Shown here in pieces: positions 1-21,948 of a stretch of 34,642 nucleotides of DNA; the stretch's first letter is position 1, and each line of letters starts with the position of its first letter. The stretch is from Methanobrevibacter sp. GTDB lineage: Archaea; Methanobacteriota; Methanobacteria; Methanobacteriales; Methanobacteriaceae. Both the position numbers and the translations under genes were made by a program. Location of the stretch: assembly GCA_017460025.1 (NCBI GenBank), contig JAFUBV010000119.1:1-34642 (forward strand), given 5' to 3'. Below the pieces are notes generated by a model, which worked only from the letters and a program-made list of their open reading frames with translations, was not told where the DNA came from and searched no databases.

Positions 1-252
1 ATAGCCCTATACAAACTACTAAACATGATAAAATACAAAAGTGAGTGGTATGGAAAAACATTCATACAAATAGACAGATTCTACCCTTCAAGCCAAAAAT
101 GTCATATCTGCGGATACCAAAAAAATGACCTAACACTCGAAATACGAAAATGGACGTGCCCACACTGCAAAACACACCACCACAGAGACATAAACGCCGC
201 AAAAAACATCTTAAACGAAGGACTAAGGATACAAAACACAACAACAGTATGA
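1..252 (+). CDS. tnpB: TnpB (IS200/IS605-family RNA-guided nuclease), 3' part only
   Basis: The reading frame is open from the first base of the window, so the 5' part of the gene lies outside. The visible 83 residues are the C-terminal end of TnpB/OrfB: a zinc ribbon with two CxxC pairs (CHIC and CPHC) and then HRDINAAKNIL, which holds the last RuvC aspartate (the RDxNAAxN signature). TnpB proteins are transposon-encoded, RNA-guided DNA nucleases related to Cas12. The stop is followed at once by sequence that looks like the right end of the element. Whether the nuclease is intact cannot be judged from this end. The family call is secure from the zinc ribbon plus the RuvC-III motif. Confidence 0.9.
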   Translation: MALYKLLNMIKYKSEWYGKTFIQIDRFYPSSQKCHICGYQKNDLTLEIRKWTCPHCKTHHHRDINAAKNILNEGLRIQNTTTV

Positions 253-350
253 AAATATTTTTCACCAGAACCCGTAAGTCAACGAGGGGATAGCTTGATA
301 AACCTTAATACACAAGTATTAACAGCCCAAGAAAAATTTTACAAAAATGG
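253..350 (+). mobile_element. Right end of the IS200/IS605-type element, candidate omega-RNA region
   Basis: The roughly 100 bases after the tnpB stop are less A+T-rich than the DNA beyond (GAACCCG, GAGGGGATAGC) and contain a perfect hairpin near the expected right end. In this family the tnpB 3' end and the right end encode the omega-RNA scaffold, with the guide taken from the flank. That role is inferred from position. The exact element boundary and cleavage tetranucleotide cannot be fixed without the left end or an empty site. Confidence 0.5.
305..322. repeat. Subterminal hairpin of the IS element (7-bp perfect stem)
   Basis: TTAATAC and GTATTAA form a perfect 7-bp inverted repeat around the tetraloop ACAA. 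IS200/IS605 elements have short subterminal hairpins instead of terminal inverted repeats, and these are bound by the Y1 transposase TnpA. The place, about 55 bases after the tnpB stop, fits a right-end hairpin. Confidence 0.55.
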
Positions 351-787
351 TACAAACATTAAGTAAAAGACTATAATCTAATTCATATATTATTTAAAAG
401 TATCTCAATGATTTGAGCTTTTTTTGATGAATCATTACTCGAGTTCTTATGTTTGGAATTTCTGCCAATTTTTATTTAAAAATCCTGATTATAAAATATA
501 TTATCTATTTTATTATATAAATTATTATATATTCGATTTAAACCATATCCACTTATATATGATGTTTTACTGAGGTAAATTTTACAAAGTGAAAGCAATT
601 TTGTGAACTGAGAACAATTTTATATAATGGGAAAAATCAGATTGTTTTAACGTATCTTTGGGTCTAAAAGATACGTAAAATATTTTTGGCTGGAGGTTAT
701 TTGGTCTTATTGTGGTGTTGGTGAATTTTTTGGTACAATTTTGATAAAAACATTCAAACATGAATTTATAAATTTTTAAATATCTAA
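351..787. other. Non-coding stretch between the IS end and gene remnants
   Basis: I see no convincing gene here. It is A+T-rich with many stops on both strands. It holds one strong 10-bp inverted repeat (650-676), and a GGAGG-like ribosome-binding sequence near 693 that is followed only by a very short frame. Confidence 0.5.
650..676. repeat. Perfect 10-bp inverted repeat with 7-base loop
   Basis: ACGTATCTTT at 650-659 and AAAGATACGT at 667-676 are exact reverse complements around GGGTCTA. A few more T-A pairs follow on either side after one mismatch. It may be a transcript hairpin, an operator, or the scar of a mobile element. No gene next to it decides between these. Confidence 0.6.
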
Positions 788-994
788 TTACTTGGAAATT
801 ATATTGAGGATGCTCATGAAAAATATCAGATTCGACGTGTTGGATATTGCGGAATTAATAGTATTAGATTGTCTAAGGAGGACCTTTCGCAAGAAGGTAG
901 AAACAATTATATTCAAAGATATAAAAATAAACATCCCGATAAATGGCTCGCTTATGAACGCCGTGAACTTATGAGTATCCTAAATTATAATTAA
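788..994 (+). pseudogene. Remnant of an unrecognised protein gene (68-codon open stretch)
   Basis: This frame is open from just after a TAA at 785-787 to the TAA at 992-994. Its composition looks protein-like: a charged start (EDAHEKYQIRRVGYCGIN) and a basic, aromatic end (NKHPDKWLAYERRELM). There is no ATG, GTG or TTG near its beginning, so it is probably the tail of a broken gene. I do not recognise the family. The overlapping ATG-started frame at 792-974 has a less natural composition and is taken as a shadow. Confidence 0.4.
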
Positions 995-1014
995 AACACT
1001 CAATAGATGATTTT

Positions 1015-1158
1015 ATGGATTATGAGAATATGTCTTTTGAAGATTTAAGAAAATTGGCAAAAACAAATCCCGAAGAATTCAAGAAGATTCCTACAGAGTA
1101 TAAAAGGAAAGTTGCTATTGAACATGAAATTGAGGAAGCTAAAAAAATGGAACATTAA
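1015..1158 (+). CDS. Small acidic/basic helical protein, 47 aa
   Basis: ATG at 1015 opens a 47-residue frame. The start MDYENMSFEDLRKLAKTNPE is followed by a helical, highly charged tail ending EEAKKMEH. The FEDLRKLAKTNPEEF stretch resembles the short DUF3135-like proteins of bacteria, but only by eye. No strong ribosome-binding site is visible upstream, and it sits 20 bases after the remnant that ends at 994, so it could be part of the same decayed locus. It is too charged and ordered to be random A+T-rich sequence. The function is unknown. Confidence 0.45.
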   Translation: MDYENMSFEDLRKLAKTNPEEFKKIPTEYKRKVAIEHEIEEAKKMEH

Positions 1159-1232
1159 TTGATGATTCAGGGATTATAATTCGCTGAATAATGAAACTAT
1201 AAACTAAATGTAGTTGGGAGAATTAAAAAATT

Positions 1233-1388
1233 TTAATCTAATTTGGATAATATGCTGTCAACATGTTCCTGAAGAGCTTTTTCCCACTCTTCAAAAGTAA
1301 TTTCTCCTGAAAAAAGCTTTTTTTCTAACTCTTTAAGTTCAGTGTCGTCAAAGTCTAACTCCCATTTTATCGGCTGATTATCACTCAT
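1233..1388 (-). CDS. Small acidic protein, 51 aa, unknown function
   Basis: The minus strand reads ATGAGTGAT to a TAA and gives 51 residues: MSDNQPIKWELDFDDTELKE, then two amphipathic helical segments (LEKKLFSGEITFEEWEKAL and a short tail). A good ribosome-binding site, GGGAGT, lies about 6 bases before the start (plus-strand 1392-1397), which supports a real gene. It is downstream of, and on the same strand as, the two large repeat proteins at 1434-4548, with a 45-base gap, so it may be the last gene of that unit. I do not recognise the family. Its size and charge would fit an antitoxin or adaptor, but nothing shows this directly. Confidence 0.6.
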   Translation of the reverse strand: MSDNQPIKWELDFDDTELKELEKKLFSGEITFEEWEKALQEHVDSILSKLD

Positions 1389-1433
1389 TTAAACTCCCTA
1401 AAAATTATTCATTGCAGTTTATTATTGAAAAAA

Positions 1434-2645
1434 TTATATCACATAAGGGTCACTAGTCATATTGATCCTATTTTCAAAGTTGGTATTTTCCATAATCTCA
1501 TCATAATTCTTCTGAACATATTCCCAAAATTCCCCTATTAAAACTCCAGAGGCCTCACTCATATGCCAATAGTCATACTTCAAATCCTTTTTTCTCAGGC
1601 ATTCAACAAACAAGTCATGATTCATGCCCTGAACAAGGAAATTATTCCGGATATACATTCCCAAATTCAAATGAGTCCGGGCCCTATAATCATCCTTATC
1701 CGAAGCCCTGACAAAGTCAATATGCTCTTTAGAGGACATCTCAACCAAACGAGTTACTGATTCGTCAATGGTTTTTGGAATGGTCAAATGTCTGAAGTTT
1801 TTTAAATCCTCAAAATAGTTTCTATTCTTGAAATCAGTGTTTGCAATGATATTGTCATAATCGGAAGTTACTTTAAGGTATAAAGCCTTAAAAATCGTTA
1901 GGACTATCCAATTATCATCAAATTTTGGAACATTATAGAGTTCCGATTTGTAGCAGTCAAAATACAATTGGTTGGGATTGTAAATGTCATGGATAAAAAA
2001 TACTTCCTTGATGTTTCTAACGGATTTTGTCATATGCATCTTCATTGCATAATCATCCATATCCTTAAAGTTTCTGATATATTCAATGTACTCCTTGCTG
2101 GTGTTTTCAATCAGAAACTCCACTGCATCATCAACACTATATGATAAACTCAGGTCTAAGGACTTTTCAAAGTCGCCCAATACCTCATTAATGTTTGTTA
2201 TCTTAGAAATTTTTGAATGCTGGAGATAAAAGCGGAATGTATCGAAGTATTGTGCAAGTCCCCTTTCATTGAACTTCTCAATGCATTGCCTAACATCATC
2301 ATCACCTTCAAAGTATTGAATCAGATAGGATTTCATTTTGATGAAGGTGGGAAATGGAGTCCTGCAGAAATATTGGCTGAATTTCTTATCATCAAACTTA
2401 TAATAGGATTTATCATCATAGATTAAACTGAAGTTAAGCTTGATGTTTTTTACAATGCGAAATTTCCACATCAAACAATCGTCACCTTCACTGACGCCGT
2501 TCAATACTTCAAAAGCTTCCTTTTGAATTTCCAGACCATCCTCATAGGTCAAATTATAATATTTGAGAAGATCAATGAAACTCTTTGATAATCTGGCACT
2601 GCCTATTTTATCCGATAAGAACTCTTTTAAGTAATTGATAATCAT
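1434..2645 (-). CDS. Repeat-module protein with DUF6794-like domains, 403 aa
   Basis: This is a soluble, acidic protein with no signal peptide or membrane segment. Residues 20-50 (LLKYYNLTYEDGLEIQ) match segments found twice in the upstream neighbour. Residues about 290-388 carry a DUF6794-like domain: PKTIDESVTRLVE, then THLNLGMYIRNNF (about 324-336), then EASGVLIGEFWEYVQKNYDEI. A weaker copy lies at about 168-266 (VDDAVEFLIENTSKEYIEYI to KVTSDYDNIIANT). DUF6794 has no known function. The gene follows its paralogue by 37 bases on the same strand, so the two are probably co-transcribed. The start ATG at 2645 has only a weak GAGTG-like site upstream. The family call is by motif pattern only. 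Confidence 0.75.
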   Translation of the reverse strand: MIINYLKEFLSDKIGSARLSKSFIDLLKYYNLTYEDGLEIQKEAFEVLNGVSEGDDCLMWKFRIVKNIKLNFSLIYDDKSYYKFDDKKFSQYFCRTPFPTFIKMKSYLIQYFEGDDDVRQCIEKFNERGLAQYFDTFRFYLQHSKISKITNINEVLGDFEKSLDLSLSYSVDDAVEFLIENTSKEYIEYIRNFKDMDDYAMKMHMTKSVRNIKEVFFIHDIYNPNQLYFDCYKSELYNVPKFDDNWIVLTIFKALYLKVTSDYDNIIANTDFKNRNYFEDLKNFRHLTIPKTIDESVTRLVEMSSKEHIDFVRASDKDDYRARTHLNLGMYIRNNFLVQGMNHDLFVECLRKKDLKYDYWHMSEASGVLIGEFWEYVQKNYDEIMENTNFENRINMTSDPYVI

Positions 2646-2682
2646 TTTTACACTCTAAAAGTTTCTTTTAGTTACAAACTTT

Positions 2683-4548
2683 TTATTTAAGTATATATTT
2701 TCCCATATTTATTGTATTTTTAAATGTAGTGTTTTTTATGATTTCATCATAATTTTCCTGGACATAATCATAAAATTCATTTAGAATGACACCTGAATCA
2801 TCATCTGACCAAAGGGAAACAGTAGCATATTTTGATTCGGAAATATCTCCAAGTAATTTAGAGTTTGACCTGTCATTTATTCCGAAGTCATTTCTTATAA
2901 CCATTCCTAATGTAAAATGCAAGCGAATCATATCGTCCTGATTAGAATTATAAACTTCATCAATGAACTCCCTGGAAGTATTTTCAACAAGATATCTGTT
3001 TGATTCCATTATGCTTTGTGGTTTTGAGAAATCATAAGAATCTTCAAAATCATCCAAATACTTTTTAATTTTTTCCTTTGAATCTAGAGAAGTTCCATTT
3101 TTGTATAATTCAAGACAACCCCAATAATCCAGTAAATCTCTTCCAATCAATTCATCATGTAAAAATTCACACAATTCTTCATCTTTTAAATGATATTTAA
3201 AATACCTTTTGATTTGATATTCCTTAGTCAATTCATCTAATTTCTTATAATTGCTGTAGTTGAAAAATTTATCTAAAGATTTTCTATCTCTTTCCATTAG
3301 AAAATTATAATGCCATCTAAATGCCCTATAAAAGGTATCAACAATATGGTAGTTTCTAATTAATTTGGAATCATATTCCTTGTATTCAAAACAATATGCA
3401 TAACATTTATCCTTAATTTCAATCCCATTTTCTTCAGAAAGATTATAATATCTTATTAAATCATCATATTCCTCTTTCAAAAAGAGATTTTCTAAAAAAT
3501 TCAATGAATAATCATCAATTTCATCAAGAATATAACAATCCTCCTTTGTTTCAACCAGTCTGTCTTTAAAGTCAATGCTGATGATTTCATCATAATTCTT
3601 TTGAACTTTTTCTCTTAACTCATTTAAGATTATCAGTGCATCAAACCGCAGCGAAGTGAAAGCACCAAACTTATAATTTGAAATATCATCATAATCCAGA
3701 TTAATTGCTGTTGCTTTTTTGTCTTTTTCATCATCCCCTGCATAAATAGTATATTCGTCCTTTTTATAATTGTAATTTTTAATAACATAAGAATATTTCA
3801 AATCATTATATTTTGAATTAAAACATTCCATCATCAAATCAGGTTTATTTTCCAAATTGAAATAAGTTGATATGAAATTCAGCATGCCTCTTGAATCATT
3901 ACCTTCTTTATTAAATTCGGCATGGTTATATATGAAATCAATGAAATCCTTGTTTGAATTGGTTATAATAAAATCAAGTATTTCTTCAATTGTCTGTGGA
4001 GATTTCCCGTCCAATTCGTCTTTTCTTGAAGTCTCTTTTAGATAATTCAATATGTATTCACGAATATCACAAACCTCTTCAAACACTTCCAATGGAGTTG
4101 AAAGAAATTTTAAAGTAATTTCAAAGTAACTGCTTAATAAATTATATTCGGATAAGTCATTAAGATACTGATTACTTAATTTATCTTCACCCATGTACTC
4201 TTCAAGAATATTATTTACCTTGACAAATTCAGCCTTTTCTTTTAAGAACTCCTCATTAACTTTATAATTGTTCAAATACTCCAAATCCATTTCTTCAGAG
4301 GGAAATTTCTTTTTAAAATAATTGATGAATAATCGTTTGAATTCTTCAATAGCCCAAACTTCATAGACAATATTTTCATTATCATCCCTAGGAATAACCA
4401 AATCATAAGCAAATAGATTATCCCTAATCACATCACCATCTTTTCGGGTTAAATTATAATGCCTTAATAATTGTCTGAAATCCTGTGAAACTGAATGGTC
4501 TCCTACTATGTAATCAAATACATCTCTTAAGTAACCGAATAACAACAT
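2683..4548 (-). CDS. Two-module paralogue of the downstream protein, DUF6794-like C-terminus, 621 aa
   Basis: The protein is an internal duplication of the 403-residue neighbour. Module 1 spans roughly residues 1-335 and module 2 roughly 345-621. Matching landmarks are LLRHYNLTRKDGDVIR (27-42) and LIRYYNLSEENGIEIK (364-379), then VQKNYDEIISIDFKDR (315-330) and VQENYDEIIKNTTFKN (596-611). The second module keeps the cleanest DUF6794-like core, LHFTLGMVIRNDFG (543-556) and DDSGVILNEFYDYVQ. The first has lost it and gained a lysine/aspartate-rich insertion near 260-290. The start is well supported: AGGAGG lies 8 bases before the ATG. It has no membrane or secretion signal. It is upstream in a probable two- or three-gene operon. 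The function is unknown. Confidence 0.78.
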   Translation of the reverse strand: MLLFGYLRDVFDYIVGDHSVSQDFRQLLRHYNLTRKDGDVIRDNLFAYDLVIPRDDNENIVYEVWAIEEFKRLFINYFKKKFPSEEMDLEYLNNYKVNEEFLKEKAEFVKVNNILEEYMGEDKLSNQYLNDLSEYNLLSSYFEITLKFLSTPLEVFEEVCDIREYILNYLKETSRKDELDGKSPQTIEEILDFIITNSNKDFIDFIYNHAEFNKEGNDSRGMLNFISTYFNLENKPDLMMECFNSKYNDLKYSYVIKNYNYKKDEYTIYAGDDEKDKKATAINLDYDDISNYKFGAFTSLRFDALIILNELREKVQKNYDEIISIDFKDRLVETKEDCYILDEIDDYSLNFLENLFLKEEYDDLIRYYNLSEENGIEIKDKCYAYCFEYKEYDSKLIRNYHIVDTFYRAFRWHYNFLMERDRKSLDKFFNYSNYKKLDELTKEYQIKRYFKYHLKDEELCEFLHDELIGRDLLDYWGCLELYKNGTSLDSKEKIKKYLDDFEDSYDFSKPQSIMESNRYLVENTSREFIDEVYNSNQDDMIRLHFTLGMVIRNDFGINDRSNSKLLGDISESKYATVSLWSDDDSGVILNEFYDYVQENYDEIIKNTTFKNTINMGKYILK

Positions 4549-4707
4549 GGGGTTTCCTCCTTTTATTTTGACTAATTCAATAAATTCATCATATGGGCAT
4601 TTATGCCTTTAAAAGCACGTATATTGAATTGTCATTTTAATTGCCTTGGTATATAATATGTGTTTAAAATATTTAACTATTGTGTAAAGAAAAAAGAGTT
4701 GGCATTA

Positions 4708-5138
4708 ATGTTGACTATCGTCCAAAAATATAATGAAACTTTAGGTCCTCGGATTCTTAAGTACCATTCATTGAAGGATTCAGCGGATGAGATCATAAAA
4801 GCGAGGGAGAATGTCATTTTAGGGATACGAAATTAGTGAAGTGATTGCAAGGCGTGAAAATCTTTTAATCGTTAAAACGCATTACCAAGATGATGAGGAG
4901 CGTGGTGAAAATATCCTATTACAGTTTGAATGATGATATGAAAGGATATATGGTAAATGCCACAACAATGAATGATTGGGACGATACACGGCTCACAGGA
5001 CTTTCCCTGAAACTTCTTGTGGAAACTTTAAAGGAGCTTGGAATGGAAGATAATGCCAAGGAGTTTTCCAAAAAAGCAATATGGTGAAGCTTAAATCCTT
5101 TGGAAAGTGAATTTCTGGCAGAATACTTTCCATTGTAA
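4708..5138 (+). pseudogene. Decayed gene in several frames (unrecognised)
   Basis: Three protein-like fragments follow each other in different frames. The first, 4708-4836, starts MLTIVQKYNETLGPRILKYH and ends after ARENVILG. Skipping one G in the GGG at about 4821-4823 continues it as GYEISEVIARRENLLIVKTH and on to LLQFE, with a TGA at 4931-4933. A third frame then gives MKGYMVNATTMNDWDD and on to a TGA at 5085-5087, beyond which it stays open through LESEFLAEYFPL to 5138. The pattern suggests one gene broken by at least two frameshifts and a nonsense change, or two adjacent small genes. I do not recognise the family. Confidence 0.45.
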
Positions 5139-5424
5139 AAATGGATTATCATTATTTTGATAATGGTTATTATTGGAGTTAGTTCAATGATGTTTTAGTG
5201 GGGATTCAATTATTTAATTTAATTAGTAGGTAGAAAGGAATTTAAATGCAGGGAAGGAATCAATTTCTTATGTGCTTAGAGAAAAATCATGTAGAATATT
5301 ATCTTGTATACTATGTCTCTCATTGGCAAATCTTAAAGTAATTTTTACAATTAATTCATTTAATTCTCTTCATAATCATTTAAAAAATACAACATCATTA
5401 ATGCATCCATATTATTTGAATCAA
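5139..5424. other. Stretch without a convincing gene
   Basis: The only candidate is a 31-codon plus-strand frame at 5246-5341 (MQGRNQFLMCLEKNHVEYYL and on) with an AAGGAA ribosome-binding sequence 6 bases upstream. It is too short to claim. The rest is A+T-rich with no repeats that stand out. Confidence 0.4.
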
Positions 5425-7419
5425 TTATAATATTTTATTATAAATTTCCATAGCTTCATCAATTAAACCTTCATCAAGATATAATTTACCTATTTGAAAA
5501 TGTACATTAATATTGTTGGGATTATATTTCAAAGATTTATTAAAATTATTTAATGCATCTTCATAAGAATTTGACATGCGTCCTTTTAAATCATAACTTG
5601 CAGATAAAATAAAATCGTCTTTAGTTTCATTTATAAGTTTATTGATGATTATGGAGGCTTCTGAATACTTGTTATGCATTATTAAAAGTTCTGCTTTGGT
5701 TATTAAAGCAATTTCTTCATTTTCTTTTTCAAAAATAATGTTATCTAATAAATTAATGGCTTCGTTAAAGTAGCCATATTCATCAAATTCTTTAATGAGG
5801 CGTAATTTAATAGTTATATTGTCATCATTCAATTCTACTATACGATGATATCTGTTTTTTGCAAAAATTTTTTCACCCAATATTAAATGAGAAATAAAAA
5901 TGTCATGATTATTTGAACTGGATAGAGGATTAATTTTATTGGCTTCAATGAATTTTTCTTTTGCTCCAATTTCATTGTTATTCTCTCTCAAACATTTTCC
6001 CCATTCTGAATAGGTAGTATCCATTTTTTCATTACATTTTAAAGCTTTCTTGAAATATTCTTCTGATTCTTCATATTTCCCTAATTTATATAATGCAACC
6101 GCCTTATTCATCAATGCTTCAACACAATTAGGTCTTTTTTCTAAAACATGATTATAATATTCTAATGATTTGTCATAGTCTTCAAATTCATTTTTATAAA
6201 TATTCCCAAGATTAACATAAGCTTTTAAATATTTTTCATCATTTTCAATGCATTTTTCATAATAATATATGCTTTTTTCAAAATTAATTCCATGATGAGC
6301 ATGCCCTAAATTAAAGAAGACTGCAGCAGTTTCATTGACATTGTCTTCAACTAGTTCTTCACAGATATTTAAATATTCAATGGCTTTGTTTGAAAATCCT
6401 CTATCAATTAATATGATTCCGATGTTTAAGAATGTATTAATATTTTTATCATCCAAATCAATAGCTTTTTCAAAATATACTTCTGCACTTTCTAAATCAT
6501 TTGAAAATAGATATGCAGATCCCTCCGCAATATAATCCATTGAGTTTTTTTCATCAAATTGAGGGATGTAAACCTCATCAGAAAATTTTTTATAAATAGA
6601 TTCAAAATCATATCTTAATTCTTCAAAAGAATTATATCTTTCCTCTGGATTCTTATTTAAACATTTTTTCACAATAGGATAAAAAACAGACTCAAAATAA
6701 GGTAATTCATAAGTTTCATGTAATTCTTTCCATTCTTGAGGATTATTACCTTTAAATTCAAAAGGTAAATCTCCATTGTTAATCATTTGATATAATACTA
6801 AACCATAGCTATAAATATCAGACTGGATACTGTACTGTTTATTAAATGATTCGGGTGCTGAATATTCAAAAGTTCCAGGATACATGTTCACATCTGTAGA
6901 ATATTTTTCAATCAAATCAACTAGTCCGAAATCACAAATTTTAAGTTCATCAAACAAAATTAATATATTTGATGGCTTAATGTCTCTATGAGCATTTATT
7001 CCATTACTATTAGCATATTCCATTGCATAGCAAAATTGAATAGACCAATCTACTATTCGTTTATCATTAATTTCACTGAAATAATCGTTCAAATCATGCT
7101 TTCCATTAATTTTGAATATTGGCTCTTGAATGATGAAGAAATCATTATCAATTTTAGTAATGCCCATACTTTTAACAATATTTGGATGTTTAAATTTAGA
7201 AGAAACAATTCCTTCTTTAATAAATTCATCATGTTTTTCTTTATCGAATTTCAATGAGTCTTGTAATTTTTTTAAAGCAATAATTTTATTAATTTTTTCA
7301 ACATGAACAAGATATACTTCCCCATATCCACTTTTTCCTTCGCCACCATATCTTTCTAGGATGTTGATGCCATCTGCAAGTTGTCCTTTAATTTCAAAGT
7401 CAAAAAATATTTCAGTCAT
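5425..7419 (-). CDS. Serine/threonine protein kinase with C-terminal TPR repeats, 664 aa
   Basis: Residues about 20-280 form a complete Hanks-type kinase domain. It has a glycine-rich loop GEGKSGYGEV (26-35), the ATP-binding lysine in ALKK (K50), HRDIKPSN (144-151, catalytic D146), DFG (163-165) and APE (188-190), so catalysis is expected. Residues about 290-664 are tandem tetratricopeptide repeats, roughly nine or ten, with the usual alanine, glycine and tyrosine spacing (for example NLGNIYKNEFEDYDKSLEYY). TPRs bind protein partners. No membrane segment is seen. The ATG at 7419 has GGTG 5 bases upstream. It is the last gene of a tight operon, 13 bases after the membrane-anchored protein. Target and trigger are unknown. 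Kinases of this layout occur both in regulation and in phage defence. Confidence 0.92.
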   Translation of the reverse strand: MTEIFFDFEIKGQLADGINILERYGGEGKSGYGEVYLVHVEKINKIIALKKLQDSLKFDKEKHDEFIKEGIVSSKFKHPNIVKSMGITKIDNDFFIIQEPIFKINGKHDLNDYFSEINDKRIVDWSIQFCYAMEYANSNGINAHRDIKPSNILILFDELKICDFGLVDLIEKYSTDVNMYPGTFEYSAPESFNKQYSIQSDIYSYGLVLYQMINNGDLPFEFKGNNPQEWKELHETYELPYFESVFYPIVKKCLNKNPEERYNSFEELRYDFESIYKKFSDEVYIPQFDEKNSMDYIAEGSAYLFSNDLESAEVYFEKAIDLDDKNINTFLNIGIILIDRGFSNKAIEYLNICEELVEDNVNETAAVFFNLGHAHHGINFEKSIYYYEKCIENDEKYLKAYVNLGNIYKNEFEDYDKSLEYYNHVLEKRPNCVEALMNKAVALYKLGKYEESEEYFKKALKCNEKMDTTYSEWGKCLRENNNEIGAKEKFIEANKINPLSSSNNHDIFISHLILGEKIFAKNRYHRIVELNDDNITIKLRLIKEFDEYGYFNEAINLLDNIIFEKENEEIALITKAELLIMHNKYSEASIIINKLINETKDDFILSASYDLKGRMSNSYEDALNNFNKSLKYNPNNINVHFQIGKLYLDEGLIDEAMEIYNKIL

Positions 7420-7432
7420 GTTAACACCTTTA

Positions 7433-7981
7433 TTAATTTCTTCTTAATTTTGTTATTTCCTTTCTAATTTTATACAGTGACATTTCCATTGTTTCAGATT
7501 CAGAATTAAGAAAATGGATGTCTTTTAAATAATTCAAATCGGATTCATATTCCCTTTCAACTATCTCTCCATATATGTTCTCATAGGATATGATGAACTT
7601 ATTTTGAGGATGTTTTTTATATTTGCTATAATAACTATGAGTCATGTCAAAAAAGCTTTTAATTTTATAATTTGGAGGCAAATAAGATATTTTTTTTAAA
7701 GTATTGCTTTCACGACCTCTTGAGTTTATTAATTCAGGTTCAAATTTTATTTTAACATCTTTTGCAACTGTGCTTCCAACATTTTCAATTACTAAATACA
7801 TTCTATGAGCATCAACTTCAAAATACACTACTACTTCAGCAGAGTTTGCTTCTACTCGAGTTAATTTCATTTCATCGATTGATTTTTTTGAGTAATATGC
7901 CATTCCAACGGTTGATATTGCCATAGCAAAATTTGAAATGGCTGAAAAATTATTAATTATTAATTCTAACATTATTATCAT
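7433..7981 (-). CDS. Small membrane-anchored protein with beta-rich domain, 182 aa
   Basis: Residues about 4-28 are hydrophobic (LELIINNFSAISNFAMAIST) and look like a single membrane anchor. They are followed by a short basic, charged linker and a beta-rich domain around 48-150, where EVVVYFEVDAHRMYLVIENV and STVAKDVKIKFEPEL resemble an immunoglobulin-like fold. The tail is basic (IRKEITKLRRN). Its ATG overlaps the DUF3800 stop by four bases (ATGA), a sign of translational coupling, and the kinase gene follows 13 bases later. A second ATG, three codons in, is an alternative start. I do not recognise a named family. The context makes it a partner of the kinase and DUF3800 proteins, perhaps as a membrane sensor or anchor. 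Confidence 0.8.
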   Translation of the reverse strand: MIIMLELIINNFSAISNFAMAISTVGMAYYSKKSIDEMKLTRVEANSAEVVVYFEVDAHRMYLVIENVGSTVAKDVKIKFEPELINSRGRESNTLKKISYLPPNYKIKSFFDMTHSYYSKYKKHPQNKFIISYENIYGEIVEREYESDLNYLKDIHFLNSESETMEMSLYKIRKEITKLRRN

Positions 7982-8838
7982 CTCTTATTCTTTAAAGGAG
8001 CCTTATCTTCCTCATGCTGCGGTCTGTAAAACCAAAAGTTCAACGGCTTAAGTTTATCATATGTTGAAAAACCCTTATTTGTTTTCAATGACACTGTCCA
8101 GGATTTGCGTTTACAATGCCTGTCAATAAATTTGTAGATCTTAAATCTATTCTTGTCCTTACTTGAAATTTCCAATTTTGGCTTTTCATATCCAAACAAC
8201 GTTTGCTGGCCTTGATTTAACCATCTTTCATAGTTTTCATAGTCTTCATAAGATGTTCTTGCAAGTCCTGCAAAAATGTCAGCTATCTGAATCAGTGCAT
8301 TTTCACCAGTATTTGACTCTTCAATGAGAACTTTTGAATATCCGGCAATGCCAAAAGACAATCTTTTTGTGCTGTAAACTCCATCATTGGGCAGTATGTC
8401 TTCAATCAGATTCCAGTCAATGGAATTGTTGCGGTCAGGATAAATTGTCAATGTATCTCCATTTTTCAATTTGTCTTCAGCGAAATTCTTTATTAGCTTA
8501 TAGTACATTAGTGATAGGTTTTTAGTATCGTCACGTCCTAAAATATCATGTCTTGAGTCCGTAATGTCCCATATGATTGTATGGATAAAGACCAAATCAT
8601 CAGACATTAGTCTGAAAAGGTAATTTAAAAACTTTTCCATTGCATGAACTTTGTCCATGGTGTTGAATTTGTTCCATTTGAATCTTTTAGGATTGATATT
8701 ATATTTTTTAAGAATTTCGTCGAGTTTATCATTGACTTTTTGGAAGTGGTCTTTTGATATTACTATCATTGATATTGATCTGAATCGTTTTTTGTTTTGA
8801 CTTGATTCGTCTGCAAATGCTATAAATTCTTTGATTAT
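7978..8838 (-). CDS. DUF3800 protein (RNase H-like fold), non-canonical ATA start, 286 aa
   Basis: The first ATG (8769) gives 263 residues that lack the family's N-terminal DES motif. Upstream the same frame continues for 23 codons as IIKEFIAFADESSQNKKR and on, which supplies exactly that motif (D10 E11 S12). It is bounded by an in-frame TGA. No ATG, GTG or TTG occurs there, but AGGTGA at 8842-8847 lies 3 bases before an ATA codon, so I place the start at that ATA. The next codon, ATC, is also possible. Other family signs are IYPDRNN and IQIADIFAGLAR. DUF3800 proteins are predicted RNase H-like enzymes often found near mobile elements and defence genes. First gene of the operon with the membrane protein and kinase. 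A mutated ATG is the alternative explanation. Confidence 0.8.
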   Translation of the reverse strand: MIKEFIAFADESSQNKKRFRSISMIVISKDHFQKVNDKLDEILKKYNINPKRFKWNKFNTMDKVHAMEKFLNYLFRLMSDDLVFIHTIIWDITDSRHDILGRDDTKNLSLMYYKLIKNFAEDKLKNGDTLTIYPDRNNSIDWNLIEDILPNDGVYSTKRLSFGIAGYSKVLIEESNTGENALIQIADIFAGLARTSYEDYENYERWLNQGQQTLFGYEKPKLEISSKDKNRFKIYKFIDRHCKRKSWTVSLKTNKGFSTYDKLKPLNFWFYRPQHEEDKAPLKNKR

Positions 8839-8841
8839 GGT

Positions 8842-8850
8842 TCACCTCTC
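8842..8850 (-). promoter_or_regulatory. Ribosome-binding site GAGAGGTGA placing the DUF3800 start at ATA
   Basis: On the minus strand GAGAGGTGA is followed by ACC and then ATA. Other genes in this window use the same AGGTG or GGTG element 4-6 bases before their start. The first ATG is more than 70 bases further on and has no comparable site. Confidence 0.6.
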
Positions 8851-8866
8851 TTTGAGAATTGGTATG

Positions 8867-8958
8867 ATTTTCTCATTTTCAGATTTTATTCATTTTCGAG
8901 GATTTTCAATATTTTCTATATTTTTTTTGGAATGGTTGTTCTTATTTTCTGTATTTTC
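8867..8958. repeat. Seven ATTTTC hexamers upstream of the DUF3800 operon
   Basis: ATTTTC begins at 8867, 8875, 8892, 8902, 8911, 8944 and 8953; on the operon's strand this reads GAAAAT. The density is high even for A+T-rich DNA. It could be a repeated operator, or the remains of a low-complexity Glu-Asn coding stretch, since one minus-strand frame reads repeated EN. Confidence 0.4.
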
Positions 8959-9119
8959 AGTTGATTATTTGGTGGAAGTTATATAATTATTTTTTGTTTT
9001 ATTTTATTCTATTTAATATGAACTTCCTTTTTTATACGAATATATTATGATATATGTTTGATTGTTTTTTTACTTAGAATTTTAAAGTAGGGCTGATAAA
9101 TATATATTTGGTGTTAAAT

Positions 9120-10096
9120 ATGAAATTGGCGGTTGTCTTAGATACAAATAAACTTTATACAAATAAACCATCTAGTGACATATCAAAATGGAATTTGTGG
9201 AAATATGATGAAATTCAAAAGTTAATAGAGGACAATGCACTTGAAAATCAGGTTGAAATATTTATTCCAGAAATTGTTTTGTTGGAATCAAAAAAACATT
9301 ATAAGAAGATTTAAATTTAAGAATAAAGAAGATTAAGGAACTAAAAAATGAATTTAAAAATTTTAATGAAGTAAATATTGAGTTGAAGGAACTTGACATT
9401 GATGAATATTGTGATGAGTTATTCAGGTATTATCATAAAAACTTAAAAATAATTCCAATTCCATCAAATAAAACCAATTTATTTGATAAAATTTTGGAGA
9501 TGGCTATAAATAAGTATCCTCCTTTCAAAAAAGGAAAATCTGATCCTGGTTTTAAAGATGCAATCATTTACAAATCTCTTCAAGATTTCAATGAAAATAA
9601 CAAAGAATATGATAAATATGTGCTGGTTACTGGAGATTCTGAGTTTTTAAATCCAGATAATAACTTAAAGAAGAATTTTTCCAAAGATGGCTCTTCAAAA
9701 TTGGAAATTGTTAATAATAAGGAAATTATCTCGTATTTGGTTGATAAATTTGAATTATATGGTGATCTAAATAAATATATTGTTGAATATTTATATGACT
9801 ATGCTTGTAAGAAATTTTTCAAGTGTTTCACGGTTGAGGTAAATTCTGTGGATTATTGGATTAAAAATTGGAATCTTCAAGAAAAATCGACTAAAATTAA
9901 AAAATTGAATGAAAATGAATTTGAAGTTGCAATATTTATTTCTATTGATATTGGTTGTCGAGACGATGAGAATTGGCAACCGGTTTTAAGAAATCCTGTT
10001 GAGAAAACAGTTATCCATCAGGAAAACTATAACCTTTCTTTGGAGGGTGGTGAATGGAAAATGTCTCTAATTTATAGTAAATACTTATTTTTCTAG
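9120..10096 (+). pseudogene. PIN-domain protein (DUF4935-like), broken by one frameshift
   Basis: Two plus-strand frames belong to one gene. The first (ATG 9120, GGTG 6 bases upstream) has LAVVLDTNKLY with acidic D8 and EIVLLESKKH, and stops at 9312-9314. The second, open before 9383 to 10096, has KSDPGFKDAII and VLVTGDSEFLN. Together they supply the four acidic positions of a PIN nuclease. Adding one base near AAGAAGATTTAA (about 9303-9314) joins them into roughly 325 residues. PIN proteins are metal-dependent ribonucleases, common as toxins. A beta-rich C-terminal domain follows (about residues 230-325). It is convergent with the HEPN operon. It may be a real pseudogene, a sequencing error, or a programmed shift. 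The TTG at 9108 is a possible earlier start. Confidence 0.75.
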
Positions 10097-10126
10097 TTTA
10101 AATTAGATTTTTAGATGAATATAGGT

Positions 10127-11503
10127 TTATTCATCTAATTGTCTAAATAACAATGTATTAGATTTTTTGTTATATTCAACTAAAACATATTCATCATTTT
10201 CGTTAATGTCTTCACTTTCAAGATCGCATAATGGGAAATAATATTTTCCATCAAATTCAACTACATTATTCTTAGGATTATTATGAGGTTCATTTTTTGA
10301 ATCTCCTTCTTTTAAAAATTGTGCTACAAAATCTTTTGTATTAATATTTTCACTCCCGCAAACTGGTAGCTGAATACAGCAGTCAATTTCTAATAATCTT
10401 AAAAATAAAATTGTGACAAAAGATGATAATAAATAGAATATTTTAATATTTGAGACAGATTTACCATGAAATGCTTTATTTCTAATTGCATATATTTCAC
10501 TTATTATTCCATCGTTGCAAAGCAAATTTTTTTCTCTAAAAAACGAATCTAATTTTTTATCATCCAATTTCAATTCATCAAGAACATGATTTAATTTTTG
10601 GATAAATACTGGGACATTTCCTCTAATTTCAGTTTCATAAAGATTATTAAACATTTCAAGAACCATGCAGGATATTGCAATTTCTACATCACCATATTTT
10701 TCTCTATGTAAATAAGATAAATAATCTATAATATAATTTACATTGTCGATTTTATTACCCAACTTTAGATAATTTTGATAAGAAGACTTTATAAAATATG
10801 CAAAATTTCCATGATACTCCCCAATGAATGGAATTCTACAGTTAAAATGATTATACTTGGAGATAGGTTTAAAATTCAATTCAAAAGAATCATTTTCATC
10901 ACAACATTTGCACGAAATCCGCATACTTGCCAAATCAGCGGAATAATAACTTACAAGATGTTTTAATCTTTCTATTGCATTTTCATATTTCTTGTTGCAG
11001 TATTTTTCTTCAAAATAAAAACATCCATCGATAGCAAATATTGAAGGGTATGTTCTTACAATCAGTTTTAATTTATCTAAATCATTTATTTTAAAATTTT
11101 TTTCATCAATATTATTCAATTCAAGATTTTCAATAAAATAGAAAGTTCTATTAACTTTATTTCTTTTAAATCTGCCTTTTTTACAACTTATATTTGAAGC
11201 ATATCCATTGACATAATTTGGAGTCATATTTAATTTAAGGGAATTCAAATCAATTAACCATCCGTCCTCTGAAATAAAACTAATTTCATATTCAGTATTT
11301 TTTTCAATATTACAATCTTCAAATTCAATATAGATTTCATCATTTATGTAAACTGCAATATTTTGAGCTGAATATGCAATATTATTTATCTTCAATTCAC
11401 CTGTTTTATTTTCAAATACTATGCAATTATTTCCAAATTTATCGTATCCATTTTTTAAATTCATATTTGGCAAATTATAATCATTATCATTATTTAAAAA
11501 CAT
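10127..11503 (-). CDS. HEPN-like protein B of the SEC-C/HEPN operon, 458 aa
   Basis: This is a paralogue of the preceding gene. The N-terminal half is beta-rich (LKINNIAYSAQNIAVYINDE, ISCKKGR). The C-terminal half is helical and holds ISEIYAIRNKAFHG, an Rx4H motif (R341 and H346 from this start) of the kind that forms the active site of HEPN ribonucleases. It also shares FIKSSY and KDFV motifs with its paralogue. The layout recalls ApeA-type HEPN proteins, but that link is by eye. The start is set at ATG 11503 because GGTGG lies 5 bases before it. The upstream GTG codons at 11510-11515 are part of that site. It follows its paralogue with essentially no gap. Likely a ribonuclease effector or paired toxin subunit. 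Confidence 0.72.
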   Translation of the reverse strand: MFLNNDNDYNLPNMNLKNGYDKFGNNCIVFENKTGELKINNIAYSAQNIAVYINDEIYIEFEDCNIEKNTEYEISFISEDGWLIDLNSLKLNMTPNYVNGYASNISCKKGRFKRNKVNRTFYFIENLELNNIDEKNFKINDLDKLKLIVRTYPSIFAIDGCFYFEEKYCNKKYENAIERLKHLVSYYSADLASMRISCKCCDENDSFELNFKPISKYNHFNCRIPFIGEYHGNFAYFIKSSYQNYLKLGNKIDNVNYIIDYLSYLHREKYGDVEIAISCMVLEMFNNLYETEIRGNVPVFIQKLNHVLDELKLDDKKLDSFFREKNLLCNDGIISEIYAIRNKAFHGKSVSNIKIFYLLSSFVTILFLRLLEIDCCIQLPVCGSENINTKDFVAQFLKEGDSKNEPHNNPKNNVVEFDGKYYFPLCDLESEDINENDEYVLVEYNKKSNTLLFRQLDE

Positions 11504-11514
11504 AAAATCCACCA

Positions 11515-12894
11515 CTATCGTTTATCAATTTTAATATTGCGTAAGCATTTTCCACTTTCTCCCAATGTTTTAAATGTAATAATTCTATACCGATTATTTA
11601 CTTGTATTGAAGAAGTTATGTTAGGTGTGGTTAATGGCAAATATAGTTCTCCATCTTTTTTAAATATTTTAACAATATTATTTTCAGAATCGGTTTTTTC
11701 TATTTCCAATTCATCTAACTTGAATTTGTCAACAAAATCTTTAGAATTTTGAATTTCATCAAGTAGAGGTAAATAAATTGAACAATTTATATTTAATATT
11801 TTCAATAAAATTATTGTCAAAAAATTAGTTACTAGTAACGATAAATATTTGGAATTGACCACTACTCCATGTAAAATTTTACTTCTATATTTAATTAGGC
11901 ACCTCAGATAATCATCATAGTTTAATTTTTCAAGGTATTCAGCAAAAACATCATTTAAACTTTCTTTACTAATGTTTAAATCATTCAACAAATTATCCAA
12001 TCTGTCCTGAAGAAATGTGTCGTCATCTAAAAGTATTCCATTTCCCACGGCCAATATTTCAAGAGCAATAAATGAAGGCATTAAATCAAAGTCATGATTA
12101 TTTCCTAAAAGTATGGACATGTAATGAATAAAGCTATAAAATGCAATCTCACTATCTTTTTTGTTTATAAATGCAGGATATGAAGATTTAATAAAATTTA
12201 AAAGATTGTCTTTTTCATCAACATAAAAACAAGAATAATGATTTTTAACGAAATCTAAATCGGAACGAGATATTGAAATTTCACAATAAGTGTCAGAGAG
12301 AATGCACTCAATATTATTGAATGATTGTCCTGCCGAATATAACTTTAAAAGAAAATATAGTGATTTCCATAATTCTTCAATATTTTCCTTATTTGAATAA
12401 GTATTCTCTTTAAAAAGATATCCATTAATATTTGGAAATGAGTTATTTTGGTATAAAAGTAGTTGAACTCCATTTAATTCTTCAGTTTCAAAATCATAAA
12501 TTGAATTCATGATTTTTAAATTTTCAACAAACGAATAAAATCTAACATAATCTTTATCTCCACATTTTCCTTTTTTACAATTAATTGATAATCCCTTAAA
12601 TTTCATTAGGCCCATGCTTTTATAAGAATTACATTCAATTTCAATTTTAAAATTGTTATCAGATCGAAATTCAATGATTCCGTTGCCTTCAGGAACTTCT
12701 TGTGTGATTAATTCAAAACTACCTAAAATTTCATCATTAATTGTTATATGAATATTTTCAATTTCAAATGTTGTGTCGTTAATGAATAATTGTCCAGTAT
12801 CGCCATGTAATGACTTAATATGGGAAAATACTGATTTAATTTTTGTTTCATGTTCAAAATTGTTTAGATTCATATTAATACTATATTTTATCAA
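11515..12894 (-). CDS. HEPN-like protein A of the SEC-C/HEPN operon, 459 aa
   Basis: It has a beta-rich N-terminal half (INCKKGKCGDK at about 104-114) and a helical C-terminal half with LIKYRSKILHG, giving R337 and H342 of an Rx4H HEPN motif. The shared landmarks FIKSSYPAF, SKDFVDKF and the hydrophobic LLVTNFLTIILLKIL show common descent with protein B. HEPN domains act as metal-independent ribonucleases in many toxin-antitoxin and abortive-infection systems. The TTG start at 12894 directly abuts the stop of the SEC-C gene. An ATG seven codons later (12873) is the alternative, and neither has a strong ribosome-binding site, so translation is probably coupled. Serine replaces the usual asparagine after the motif arginine (RS rather than RN), so this copy may be weaker or inactive. 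Confidence 0.72.
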   Translation of the reverse strand: MIKYSINMNLNNFEHETKIKSVFSHIKSLHGDTGQLFINDTTFEIENIHITINDEILGSFELITQEVPEGNGIIEFRSDNNFKIEIECNSYKSMGLMKFKGLSINCKKGKCGDKDYVRFYSFVENLKIMNSIYDFETEELNGVQLLLYQNNSFPNINGYLFKENTYSNKENIEELWKSLYFLLKLYSAGQSFNNIECILSDTYCEISISRSDLDFVKNHYSCFYVDEKDNLLNFIKSSYPAFINKKDSEIAFYSFIHYMSILLGNNHDFDLMPSFIALEILAVGNGILLDDDTFLQDRLDNLLNDLNISKESLNDVFAEYLEKLNYDDYLRCLIKYRSKILHGVVVNSKYLSLLVTNFLTIILLKILNINCSIYLPLLDEIQNSKDFVDKFKLDELEIEKTDSENNIVKIFKKDGELYLPLTTPNITSSIQVNNRYRIITFKTLGESGKCLRNIKIDKR

Positions 12895-15800
12895 TTATTT
12901 GTATTTATCTAAAAGATCCAGTCCATTAGTTTTTATTTGTGAAAAAGGTATTATGTCCATAGGTGAGCTCTTTAAATAGATTGTTGGTAGCTCCTGTGAT
13001 ACTAAAAAAATTGAAAAAACTTTATAATCTTTTAAATCACACCCTATTTTTTCACCTAATTTATCCAAATTATCTGTAATCCACATACTCCTTCTTTGAT
13101 GCTTTTTTATCCATTCTTTTTTATTAAAAAAATTCTCCATTTCATGAACAATCTGGCGCGGATTTTTACCACTTTCAACGTCCTTACATTCAATTGAAAA
13201 TAAACGTTTATTATCATTATCCAATAATAAAATGTCGATGTCTCCATATTTTGGTTCAACTGTTACTATTTTATCTATCTTCACATTAGAATATATTTTA
13301 AAATCAAATTTTCCTGAAGTTTCTAACTCATCTTCAAACCATTTAAAAACATGCTCATTAAATTCTTTTCCTTTCTTATTAAGCATTTTGCCCATAAATC
13401 TCTTAAATTTTTTTGAAGAATTATCATTTGTTTTATATAATCCTTTAAAAATTAAATTTATCAAATTCAAACCTGAATAATAAGCATTTCTAAAACCATA
13501 AATGACCGTTTCATCTTTGTCATTTTTAATAATTAATGGTTTTAAATAATATGACAAAGGTCTTCTAAAAAACCAAGGATAAATATCATTTTCATCAAAA
13601 CCTTCAGGGGGGTTTTCCCAATTTGCACGAGAGGACAATGAAAAATTTTCTATTGCAAGTAAAGATTTATCATCACTCCATCCCAACTCCTCTTTCAAAA
13701 TATCAATTAATTTCAATTTTGAAATATAAACAATGTCCTTTTCATCATTTACAGCTAAACTTATTAACACTGAAACAAACTCTGCATAATCAGTTAATCT
13801 GATGCCAAATTCATATTTAAATGATTCATCGTCTTCATTGTTAGGGGGTTTTCCACCATTACTTTCATGAAAAATATTTGTGGATAAATTATTCACATGT
13901 TCTACTGTTCTGTTGGTTCTAAATGTGTCAAGAATATCATCCAAATTCGTTCTGGTTCCAATACGGCCAGACTCTAATGGAGTAATTTCAAAATTTATAT
14001 ATTCAGATTTAATATAGTCTCTAGCAAAAGCCCATTCAATATAATTATATGATAAAGCCATTAGATTGTCAAAACTTTCTTTGGATATTTCTAATGTGCT
14101 GTTGAAGTTCTGTTCTGCTGATAAAATTTCTATTAATGTCCTTGTTGGCAATCCTAGTTTATCCAATTCATGATCATCATTAACAATATCCTCCAGGATG
14201 TTGGAAGGATCATCATAACTATTTAATGTATACATGTTCGTTGTTGAAGTGTAATGTCTTGCATGCAATATATTTTCATAATTCAAAATTAATTTTTGGA
14301 TAAGGTCATCCCAATCATATTTAACTATTTCCTGTTTAATACAATCTAGTAAATAATCCACGATTTTGTTACTTAATTCAATAGATTCACCTTTACTCAG
14401 CTGTTGATTGTAGTCAAACTCGCATTGAACTTTATTTGCCAAATTATCCAGTATTAATTGGACATTATGTTCTTGTAATAATCGTATCTGATTTTTAACT
14501 GGAAAATTCATTGGATTTTCTGATGAATAAAGTAAAATATACTTTTTTAAACCCAATGGTGCTTTTTCATTTATAATTTCACAAATGCGTTCCTTAGTTA
14601 ATGTATTTTCAAAACCATTTTCTTCTAATATAATTCCCAACAGTTTTAAAATTTCCTTCATCATAATCCTGTCTGCTTCATTGTTTTTCTGATTTGCAAT
14701 AGATAATAGATATTTACTAATTTTTAAGTCAATTTCTGCTTCAGTTACATGACTTGAAATAATTAAATCTTCCTTAATTTCACTATTTAAATCTAAATCC
14801 TCATATGCTTCAAAACTAATAGAAATAAAAATTGAATGATTATTTAATGGTTTTAAATCAATTTGGAGTTCATCACTAAATTGCCAAATCCAATAACATA
14901 TTGCTTCAGCAATAGTTGATTCAATGTTATTCTTAAAATTAGTAATCCAGATGTTCTGGTCATGTATTTTAATCAAAAATAAATTAAATCCTGTTACATA
15001 CATAAATTCATTAACTTTATTGACTAAAATTAGTTTATCATCATATTTTTCTAAGTGAGGATCTTTATCATGAATTGCATTTTTTCTTAATTCTTTAGTA
15101 TTGATCGATGTTGAATCAAATGTTAAAAAGATTGAATCCACTTTTCTATCATCCAAGTAAAATGAATGATTTTTTTCAAGATATACACTGAATTTATCTA
15201 AAAAACTTTCTCCAATAATATCTTCTTTTTCTAATAATCTTGCAAATTTAAAAAGTGTCAAACTATCATAATGGTCTGTTTTAATCATTATGTCAAATTC
15301 TTCACAATTAATTGTTAATAACTTGATATTTTCCGGCAGGTATGTATAATACTGTCGTCCACTCATGCCCACAAATAAGATTATAATGATGTCTTTGATT
15401 GATTCATCAGAATTAAGATTACCAATAACGGAATCAATTCTGTTTTTTAATTTTGATTCATAGTTTAAGTCTATTTTTTCGCAGGGTCCATTTTCACCAT
15501 AACTTTTTAATGTATCATTGATGAGAATGCAATATGCCAACTTATCTGTGTCAATTTTAAAAATTTCATCTTTAAATATTGAATTTTTCCATTCAGACAA
15601 TTCATAATCATTTTCCTCAAAATATAACTTATTTTTTAATTTAAATTGAATATCTGACCATAAGTTATCCTGATAATATTTTATAAAATTCTCCTTTTCA
15701 TTAAACTTTGCTAGAGATACTAAAATATCATGTCTAAGTGAAATAGACATCAGTGGTGGAAAAATTACATATTCATCATCAATTTTTATTAATGGGGAAG

Positions 15801-16635
15801 TTAATAAGGGATTGTTATCCAAATATTGTGAAAAAACAATAGTTTTATCAAAAAAATCTTTAAATTCTTTTTCAACGGATAAAATATTGTTAAATTTATC
15901 ATCACCTATTTCAATAATAAAATTATCTGCTATTCTTTCATTTATATTTAAAAAATCCTTAAATTCTTTCAATTCATCAGTACTTAATCTAACACATTTT
16001 TTAAGATATTCCAATTCATTAATGTTTGGAATAAATATTTCTTGTCTAAATCTGTTGTCATAAATTTCATAACGCTCATGACCTGACTTTTTAGCAATGT
16101 AATCACTCAGGGATAAGATAAACATGGATGTTTGGTAGAAATGATTCAAAAAATCTTTTGAAAAACTTGAATGGTTAAAATGAATAGAATCAATTATTTT
16201 TTGCAATACATAATACTCAGAAGTAGAGGGTCCTGTAAATATTACATTATTTTTAAAGAATAAAATATTATTTGTAAATAGATTATCTAAAGGATCTTCC
16301 AATGAACCTATTGGCCCATGGGAAGGAAGATATTTTAAAAATAATTCATTTAACTCTGATGTAGTAATTAATTTATCTTCACAGTCAATATTTGAGCATG
16401 CAATTTGAGTTGCAATCTCAAGTCGAATATATTGTGATTGGTTTTCAGGACAAATTGATAAAGCTACTAATGTTTCAATTAAGTCTTTCTGATTATATTT
16501 TGAAAATTCTTCTTTTAATCTATTCAATGCATCATCTGGGAGATTTTTTAAATATCTATCTTTTTTAAGGCAACAATTTTTATATTTCTTTCCACTGCCA
16601 CAGGGACAGGGATCATTTCTACCGATTTTTACCAT
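12895..16635 (-). CDS. Large SEC-C zinc-motif protein with C-terminal PD-(D/E)XK-like nuclease domain, 1246 aa
   Basis: Residues 3-22 are a textbook SEC-C metal-binding motif (GRNDPCPCGSGKKYKNCC). The middle, about 1000 residues, matches nothing I can name; it is mostly helical, cytosolic and acidic. Near the C-terminus GDIDILLLD (D1132, D1134) is followed about 15 residues later by IECKD (E1149, K1151), the D...ExK layout of PD-(D/E)XK nucleases. An upstream helix (EFNEHVFKWFEDEL) could supply the first acidic residue. The start is ATG 16635: AGGTG lies 6 bases upstream and the in-frame GTG at 16644 is inside that site. First gene of a three-gene operon with no gaps to two HEPN proteins. A nuclease or sensor of a defence system is the likeliest role. 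Confidence 0.8.
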   Translation of the reverse strand: MVKIGRNDPCPCGSGKKYKNCCLKKDRYLKNLPDDALNRLKEEFSKYNQKDLIETLVALSICPENQSQYIRLEIATQIACSNIDCEDKLITTSELNELFLKYLPSHGPIGSLEDPLDNLFTNNILFFKNNVIFTGPSTSEYYVLQKIIDSIHFNHSSFSKDFLNHFYQTSMFILSLSDYIAKKSGHERYEIYDNRFRQEIFIPNINELEYLKKCVRLSTDELKEFKDFLNINERIADNFIIEIGDDKFNNILSVEKEFKDFFDKTIVFSQYLDNNPLLTSPLIKIDDEYVIFPPLMSISLRHDILVSLAKFNEKENFIKYYQDNLWSDIQFKLKNKLYFEENDYELSEWKNSIFKDEIFKIDTDKLAYCILINDTLKSYGENGPCEKIDLNYESKLKNRIDSVIGNLNSDESIKDIIIILFVGMSGRQYYTYLPENIKLLTINCEEFDIMIKTDHYDSLTLFKFARLLEKEDIIGESFLDKFSVYLEKNHSFYLDDRKVDSIFLTFDSTSINTKELRKNAIHDKDPHLEKYDDKLILVNKVNEFMYVTGFNLFLIKIHDQNIWITNFKNNIESTIAEAICYWIWQFSDELQIDLKPLNNHSIFISISFEAYEDLDLNSEIKEDLIISSHVTEAEIDLKISKYLLSIANQKNNEADRIMMKEILKLLGIILEENGFENTLTKERICEIINEKAPLGLKKYILLYSSENPMNFPVKNQIRLLQEHNVQLILDNLANKVQCEFDYNQQLSKGESIELSNKIVDYLLDCIKQEIVKYDWDDLIQKLILNYENILHARHYTSTTNMYTLNSYDDPSNILEDIVNDDHELDKLGLPTRTLIEILSAEQNFNSTLEISKESFDNLMALSYNYIEWAFARDYIKSEYINFEITPLESGRIGTRTNLDDILDTFRTNRTVEHVNNLSTNIFHESNGGKPPNNEDDESFKYEFGIRLTDYAEFVSVLISLAVNDEKDIVYISKLKLIDILKEELGWSDDKSLLAIENFSLSSRANWENPPEGFDENDIYPWFFRRPLSYYLKPLIIKNDKDETVIYGFRNAYYSGLNLINLIFKGLYKTNDNSSKKFKRFMGKMLNKKGKEFNEHVFKWFEDELETSGKFDFKIYSNVKIDKIVTVEPKYGDIDILLLDNDNKRLFSIECKDVESGKNPRQIVHEMENFFNKKEWIKKHQRRSMWITDNLDKLGEKIGCDLKDYKVFSIFLVSQELPTIYLKSSPMDIIPFSQIKTNGLDLLDKYK

Positions 16636-16676
16636 AGTGTACACCTAGATTCTTGTATAAATATTGTGAAAATATT

Positions 16677-16695
16677 ATATTTATAATATTTGGGA
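16677..16695 (-). promoter_or_regulatory. Candidate BRE/TATA promoter of the SEC-C/HEPN operon
   Basis: On the minus strand CCCAAATATTATAAATAT looks like an archaeal BRE plus TATA box. Transcription would start about 25 bases on, near 16657, leaving a leader of about 22 bases that contains the AGGTG site. This comes from spacing and sequence only. Confidence 0.4.
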
Positions 16696-17559: not shown

Positions 17560-17599
17560 TTATAGCGTTTTTTTGGTCATGATAGACATTGTAGTAATA

Positions 17600-17776: not shown

Positions 17777-17785
17777 TGTGTTCAC

Positions 17786-20686: not shown

Positions 20687-20704
20687 AATTTTTAAAGTGA
20701 TAAA

Positions 20705-21209: not shown

Positions 21210-21231
21210 GACCTATTGATAAATTCTTTCA

Positions 21232-21918: not shown

Positions 21919-21940
21919 AATTTAATTTAATATTTTAAAT

Positions 21941-21948
21941 TATATAAA
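21941..21948 (-). promoter_or_regulatory. TATA box of neuA, probable leaderless start
   Basis: TTTATATA on the minus strand is centred about 26 bases before the ATG at 21918, the usual archaeal TATA-to-start-site distance. The bases between contain no purine-rich ribosome-binding sequence, so transcription may begin at or next to the ATG. Confidence 0.45.

Follow-up and report, generated by a model that had tools for sequence, protein, structure and literature searches.

Three adjoining genes for a DUF3800 protein, an Ig-like membrane protein and a TPR kinase: a possible mosaic operon in a candidate Methanobrevibacter defence island

Introduction

Little has been described of archaeal defence other than CRISPR and R-M (PMC12988326). 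The described systems closest to the locus considered here resemble it in the kinase (MADS and the single-gene defence kinases PD-T4-6 and Stk2), in the DUF3800 protein (CRISPR V-A2/VI-F loci and two Methanothermobacter plasmids) or in the membrane protein (CBASS and PDC-S54 operons). DUF3800 proteins have an RNase H fold and accompany TPR proteins in Cas12a2 loci (PMC10910872; PMC12669027).

The window, i.e., the whole stretch of DNA analyzed (34,642 nucleotides), is one contig of the draft genome (MAG) of a gut-type methanogen, 2.36 Mb in 423 contigs. It contains three genes that run in one direction, in the order DUF3800, membrane protein and kinase-TPR along the transcript (Table 1). Judged from sequence comparisons, there is about an even chance that they form a mosaic operon, put together locally in a Methanobrevibacter defence island from genes that elsewhere stand apart, each in the company of defence or mobile genes, and acting by a mechanism that we infer.

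Table 1. Coordinates, strands and bases of assignment of the main features (window positions, except for the last row)
Feature	Position	Strand	Basis
Ser/Thr kinase domain with some 9 TPRs (664 aa)	5425-7419	-	Pfam, motif/TPR scan, G019 relative
Probable out-of-frame rest of the last TPR of the kinase, reading IIIDSNNMDALMMLYFLNDYEEN up to a stop (frame 0)	5355-5424	-	
Membrane protein, 182 aa, one helix; start perhaps at the second ATG (7972)	7433-7981	-	
DUF3800-family protein, predicted RNase HII-like fold, 286 aa from ATA start	7978-8838	-	Pfam, conserved residues, AF2 model
Shine-Dalgarno-like stretch AGAGAGGTGA ahead of the ATA start	8841-8850	-	Sequence
Divergent PIN_12 nuclease gene, frameshift-broken near 9314	9108-10096	+	Pfam, frame reading
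Two tandem paralogues without family match	10127-11515 and 11515-12894	-	
SEC-C protein, 1249 aa	12895-16644	-	Pfam
CBASS cyclase (frameshift-split), 2TM effector and tail membrane gene	L114:1148-2907		

Results

The three genes and their products

The stop of the DUF3800 gene overlaps the membrane-protein ORF by 4 bases (ATGA), and a gap of 13 bases separates the stop of the latter from the ATG of the kinase, an arrangement that implies translational coupling. The first-pass annotation had claimed three genes coupled by this overlap and this gap, and had described them as encoding an RNase H-like DUF3800 enzyme, a single-pass membrane protein with a beta domain, and a kinase with full catalytic motifs and nine or ten TPRs; both junctions were borne out, and the three descriptions agree with the data given below. 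A scan for promoters and terminators gave nothing better than shuffled sequences.

The DUF3800 gene product passed the curated Pfam gathering cut-off of PF12686 (23.5 versus 21 bits). Its frame opens with an ATA codon at position 8838, immediately downstream of an in-frame TGA. At position 8769 the frame has its first ATG, and starting there removes D10-E11-S12, the DE(S) catalytic motif, which is invariant across all relatives; the ATA was taken as the start because it is the only one that keeps this motif. The relative in genome G050 has an ATG at the matching position, and the gene may either start at ATA or have lost an original ATG. Six relatives share residues D10, E11, D94, D135 and D187 without exception. 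The AF2 model (pLDDT 74.8, pTM 0.79; confident in one of five models only) gave RNase HII/H2-type structures as its ten best PDB matches, with 1eke at the top (E 6.6e-6). An RNase H-like fold is what this one confident model out of five predicts, in agreement with the published RNase H fold of DUF3800 (PMC10910872; PMC12669027), and the catalytic acids D10/E11/D135/D187 are conserved. Upstream of the gene, no Rfam DUF3800-type RNA was matched even at E<=5, and the fold z-score was -1.06. The GC3 of the gene is 0.34, versus 0.20 and 0.17 for its two operon partners, and this high value is not a family trait, since that of the G050 relative is only 0.16. The mismatch makes it probable that the DUF3800 gene came from elsewhere and joined the other two.

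The membrane protein belongs to no Pfam or NCBIfam family, and it is matched by phrog_9607 and phrog_11802, two phage families of unknown function (5e-10). Its AF2 model (pLDDT 78.8) displays a long N-terminal helix, an Ig-like beta sandwich and C-terminal helices, for which Foldseek returned only generic Ig-like folds, the phage matches being weak.

The kinase matched Pkinase (PF00069) with 5.9e-40 and 137.8 bits (cut-off 31.7), and several TPR models of Pfam also matched. The glycine-rich loop, K50, the HRD motif with D146, DFG and APE were all found, and a simple TPR scan scored 9 TPR positions. The closest relative, in genome G019, is 41% identical over 661 aa. Directly after the stop, a TPR-like tail, IDSNNMDALMMLYFLNDYEEN up to its own stop, can be read in another frame. 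Since the tail continues in this way and most relatives run past the stop of the window protein, it is likely that a single-base frameshift at the 3' end cut the last 22 or so amino acids of the kinase.

Occurrence of the three genes in other genomes

Among 139 family genomes, and leaving aside that of the window, the membrane protein was matched in 11 and DUF3800 in one. Among 152 phylum genomes, the DUF3800 subfamily was matched in three others, and kinase-TPR proteins occur in G018, G019, G073, G089 and G138, while G063 yielded a fragment. The relatives that bear names are mostly from Methanobrevibacter. Within the genus, DNA-level similarity to the trio extends only to the membrane gene and to short stretches that look AT-rich or TPR-coding.

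The genome of the window is the only one, among the family and phylum genomes searched, with the kinase and either partner. No two of the three genes were side by side in the other loci inspected, and the trio was present in 0 of 151 other Methanobacteriota genomes, these co-occurrence counts being those obtained from draft genomes with profile thresholds. Bacterial chromosomes were searched with the membrane protein only. Phage and plasmid searches gave no visible joint match, with flanks inspected for a minority of the kinase matches. On viral contigs, single-protein scans found no relative; an alignment-based search did not find DUF3800 relatives either, while the alignment of the membrane protein led to one phage-like contig. 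A keyword literature search (archaeal defence, CoCoNuTs, DefensePredictor) returned no description of such a trio in the portions of text that it covered. The idea of the trio as a module, put forward in the first-pass annotation together with conserved gene order as the way to check it, is thus not sustained: the homologues were never together in the 139 family and 152 phylum genomes, an outcome that the annotation itself had named as refuting the idea. As no relatives are adjacent in the other genomes searched, the trio looks like a local assembly and not like an established immune system.

Defence context of the relatives

Neighbourhoods were compared between 17 relatives (the membrane protein accounting for 12 and the kinase for 5) and 17 control positions. 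The controls came from five of the genomes only, and one control position was replaced by hand owing to overlap with a test locus. At E<=1e-20, the 93 neighbour ORFs of the relatives matched 169 PADLOC families, versus 6 for 130 control ORFs, a real contrast, yet one made larger by redundancy among the methyltransferase profiles and by the relatedness of three of the provirus loci. The co-occurrence with defence genes that had been proposed for analysis is observed. As to the view that kinase and DUF3800 genes are each found near defence and mobile genes, both contexts were seen, the control covering the kinase and the membrane protein.

In locus L114, a relative of the membrane protein follows a CBASS 2TM effector at 9 nt, downstream of the cyclase; in the proviral loci L020 and L022, both of which have a C5 methyltransferase, relatives follow PDC-S54 at the same distance. 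Four loci, the window among them, place the membrane protein no more than 9 nt from a gene of effector type. The L114 contig was binned as Mycoplasmataceae, and the 66% identity of its tail membrane protein to that of the window suggests that it is a Methanobrevibacter contaminant of that bin. The relative in L018 has type I RM genes as neighbours, together with an integrase, SPbeta-like phages carry others, and those of L019, L023, L027 and L028 are orphans among housekeeping genes. Separately, PDC-S54, the membrane protein and a family-less protein of 331-337 aa make up a recurring Methanobrevibacter provirus cassette beside the C5 methyltransferase (L020:8057-9784, L022:8591-10327), and in the SPbeta-like phage Goe11 the relative (26% identity) is two genes before aimR (L109:3956-4558).

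DUF3800 relatives are carried by plasmids pFZ1, counted as an R-M plasmid, and pFV1, which we take to be one too. Others are placed directly after an N-6 DNA methylase (pRMAS01), beside DUF1156/DUF499 genes (T. roseum), and next to both a C5 methyltransferase and an Eco47II-type enzyme (G050), the latter enzyme being also present in a proviral locus of PDC-S54 type (G043).

Concerning the kinase, its relatives also adjoin R-M genes. In G019 the gene sits ahead of a type II methyltransferase and 13 nt after a 462-aa gene, which follows an MrcB_N/AAA_5 gene; by eye, the 462-aa gene appears McrC-like and the pair McrBC-like. The upstream gene is different in each of the three best-matching kinases, that of the window included.

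Neighbouring genes in the window

PIN_12 exceeded the Pfam cut-off in 4 of the 139 family genomes. It is divergent from a TPR kinase at about 1.7 kb in the window and at about 6.6 kb in G073, and the two PIN proteins are 37% identical; a third PIN_12 copy is in a type I RM locus. It is unlikely, from these positions, that two rare genes met twice within a few kb by chance. The link of PIN_12 to the kinase, which has better support than the trio, would be explained by a hotspot common to both in the island or, equally, by a functional pairing.

The C-terminal half of the SEC-C protein is distantly related to Upx, an anti-phage protein (5e-38 in PADLOC; 151.5 bits in NCBIfam, versus a cut-off of 1900), and the SEC-C gene is in a tight three-gene run with the tandem paralogues. 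The latter gave no HEPN profile match; the RNxxxH/RxxxxH-like motifs RNKAFH and RSKILH near their C-termini look HEPN-like by eye only. Thus, of the neighbours previously named as PIN, HEPN and SEC-C, the SEC-C protein and the PIN gene, although split, were found, and HEPN was left without a profile match. The idea of an island fared well, in that relatives of all three operon genes adjoin defence or mobile genes and the window itself holds the distant Upx relative and PIN_12. A defence-island setting of the operon is supported by these comparisons.

Elsewhere in the window, an adjoining DUF6794 pair (1434-4548, - strand) differs in GC3 (0.41 and 0.24), the contig edge (1-252, + strand) resembles, by eye, the zinc-ribbon terminus of a transposon protein of TnpB type, and 17786-31370 is a surface polysaccharide cluster (flippase, NeuB, UDP-GlcNAc 2-epimerase, cytidylyltransferase and LicD).

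Discussion

A kinase-gated, membrane-tethered module of RNase H-like type, local in nature, is a plausible reading of the mosaic operon. The DUF3800 protein would be its nuclease effector, cleaving RNA or RNA-DNA hybrids; the single-helix membrane protein would hold the complex at the membrane or report envelope events; and the kinase-TPR protein would act as sensor or switch, with the TPRs binding a partner. During infection, phosphorylation by the kinase would release or activate the nuclease. The set of partners would be interchangeable and not fixed, following the logic of other kinase-regulated restriction or abortive systems. This mechanism of kinase switch, membrane tether and RNase HII-like effector is drawn from homology and layout.

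It is possible, though doubtful, that three unrelated accessory genes came to be adjacent in a hotspot and share no mechanism, namely an abortive kinase like PD-T4-6 or Stk2, an orphan DUF3800 nuclease and a phage moron. The lack of co-occurrence elsewhere, the different GC3 values, the good scores of the kinase domain with single-gene PD-T4-6 models and the changing gene upstream of the best-matching kinases would all be expected in that case; however, the translational coupling implied by the overlap and the short gap, and the repeated placement of the membrane gene next to effector-type genes, go beyond loose adjacency.

That the operon is the inert remnant of a decaying island, with genes that were once functional, seems unlikely. 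The ATA at the place expected for the start codon, the 3' frameshift of the kinase and the split PIN gene suggest that the locus may be decaying. Nevertheless, 286 (DUF3800) and 664 (kinase) codons have been kept open in a sequence of 28% GC with the catalytic residues retained, and the kinase has lost only about half a TPR. Errors of MAG assembly could account for the changes as well as decay could.

A broader and still more improbable reading would make the kinase-TPR protein a portable core of modular archaeal defence, joined to the McrBC-like pair in G019, to DUF3800 here and to PIN_12 in G073 and here, with the Ig-like membrane protein as a tether common to CBASS and PDC-S54 operons. Finally, a true conserved but rare kinase/DUF3800/membrane defence system, missed in bacterial chromosomes, is very hard to credit in view of the absence of the trio from the 151 other Methanobacteriota genomes and of visible joint matches in the phage and plasmid searches, even if Cas12a2 loci are known to have DUF3800 as an accessory alongside TPR proteins (PMC10910872).

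Returning to the mosaic operon, if its kinase does switch a nuclease effector, immunity gated by a kinase would here be encoded in an archaeal operon. Mosaic or not, the locus brings forward two reusable defence-associated parts with no assigned function, one being the Ig-like membrane protein of phage and defence loci and the other the TPR kinase, whose link to PIN_12 offers a testable pairing.

The earlier statement that the trio is not a named system agrees with the comparison with MADS, BREX and CRISPR V-A2/VI-F. The MAD6 kinase of MADS, also tied to restriction genes, is the best PADLOC match of the window kinase domain (2.5e-47), but it aligns to this domain only; membership was rejected since NCBIfam MAD6 gave 55.9 bits versus a cut-off of 460, and no mad model matched in the other seven island ORFs tested. 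BREX was rejected too, on a PglW kinase score of 27.6 bits (equivalog cut-off 990). PD-T4-6 and Stk2 are similar in the kinase domain, and the PD-T4-6 profile matched strongly; their profiles cover the kinase part only, whereas the window kinase carries an extended array of TPRs and has partners in its operon. The DUF3800 accessory nucleases of Cas12a2 (V-A2) and VI-F have in common with the window the DUF3800 protein, the RNase H fold and the association with TPRs (PMC10910872; PMC12669027), but in the window the TPRs lie on a separate kinase; this assignment was rejected, with no cas family in the ORFs scanned and no CRISPR-like array in 1-20000. The DUF3800 proteins of Methanothermobacter pFV1 and pFZ1 belong to one subfamily with that of the window (aligned over 98% of the length at 34-35% identity, with a common NFW-Y-PQ-DKAP tail), although no kinase or membrane partner is annotated beside them. 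In the CBASS and PDC-S54 operons, a homologous membrane protein is encoded directly downstream of the effector gene, as in the window, with a 2TM effector or PDC-S54 in the place that DUF3800 occupies here, and without the kinase that completes the trio.
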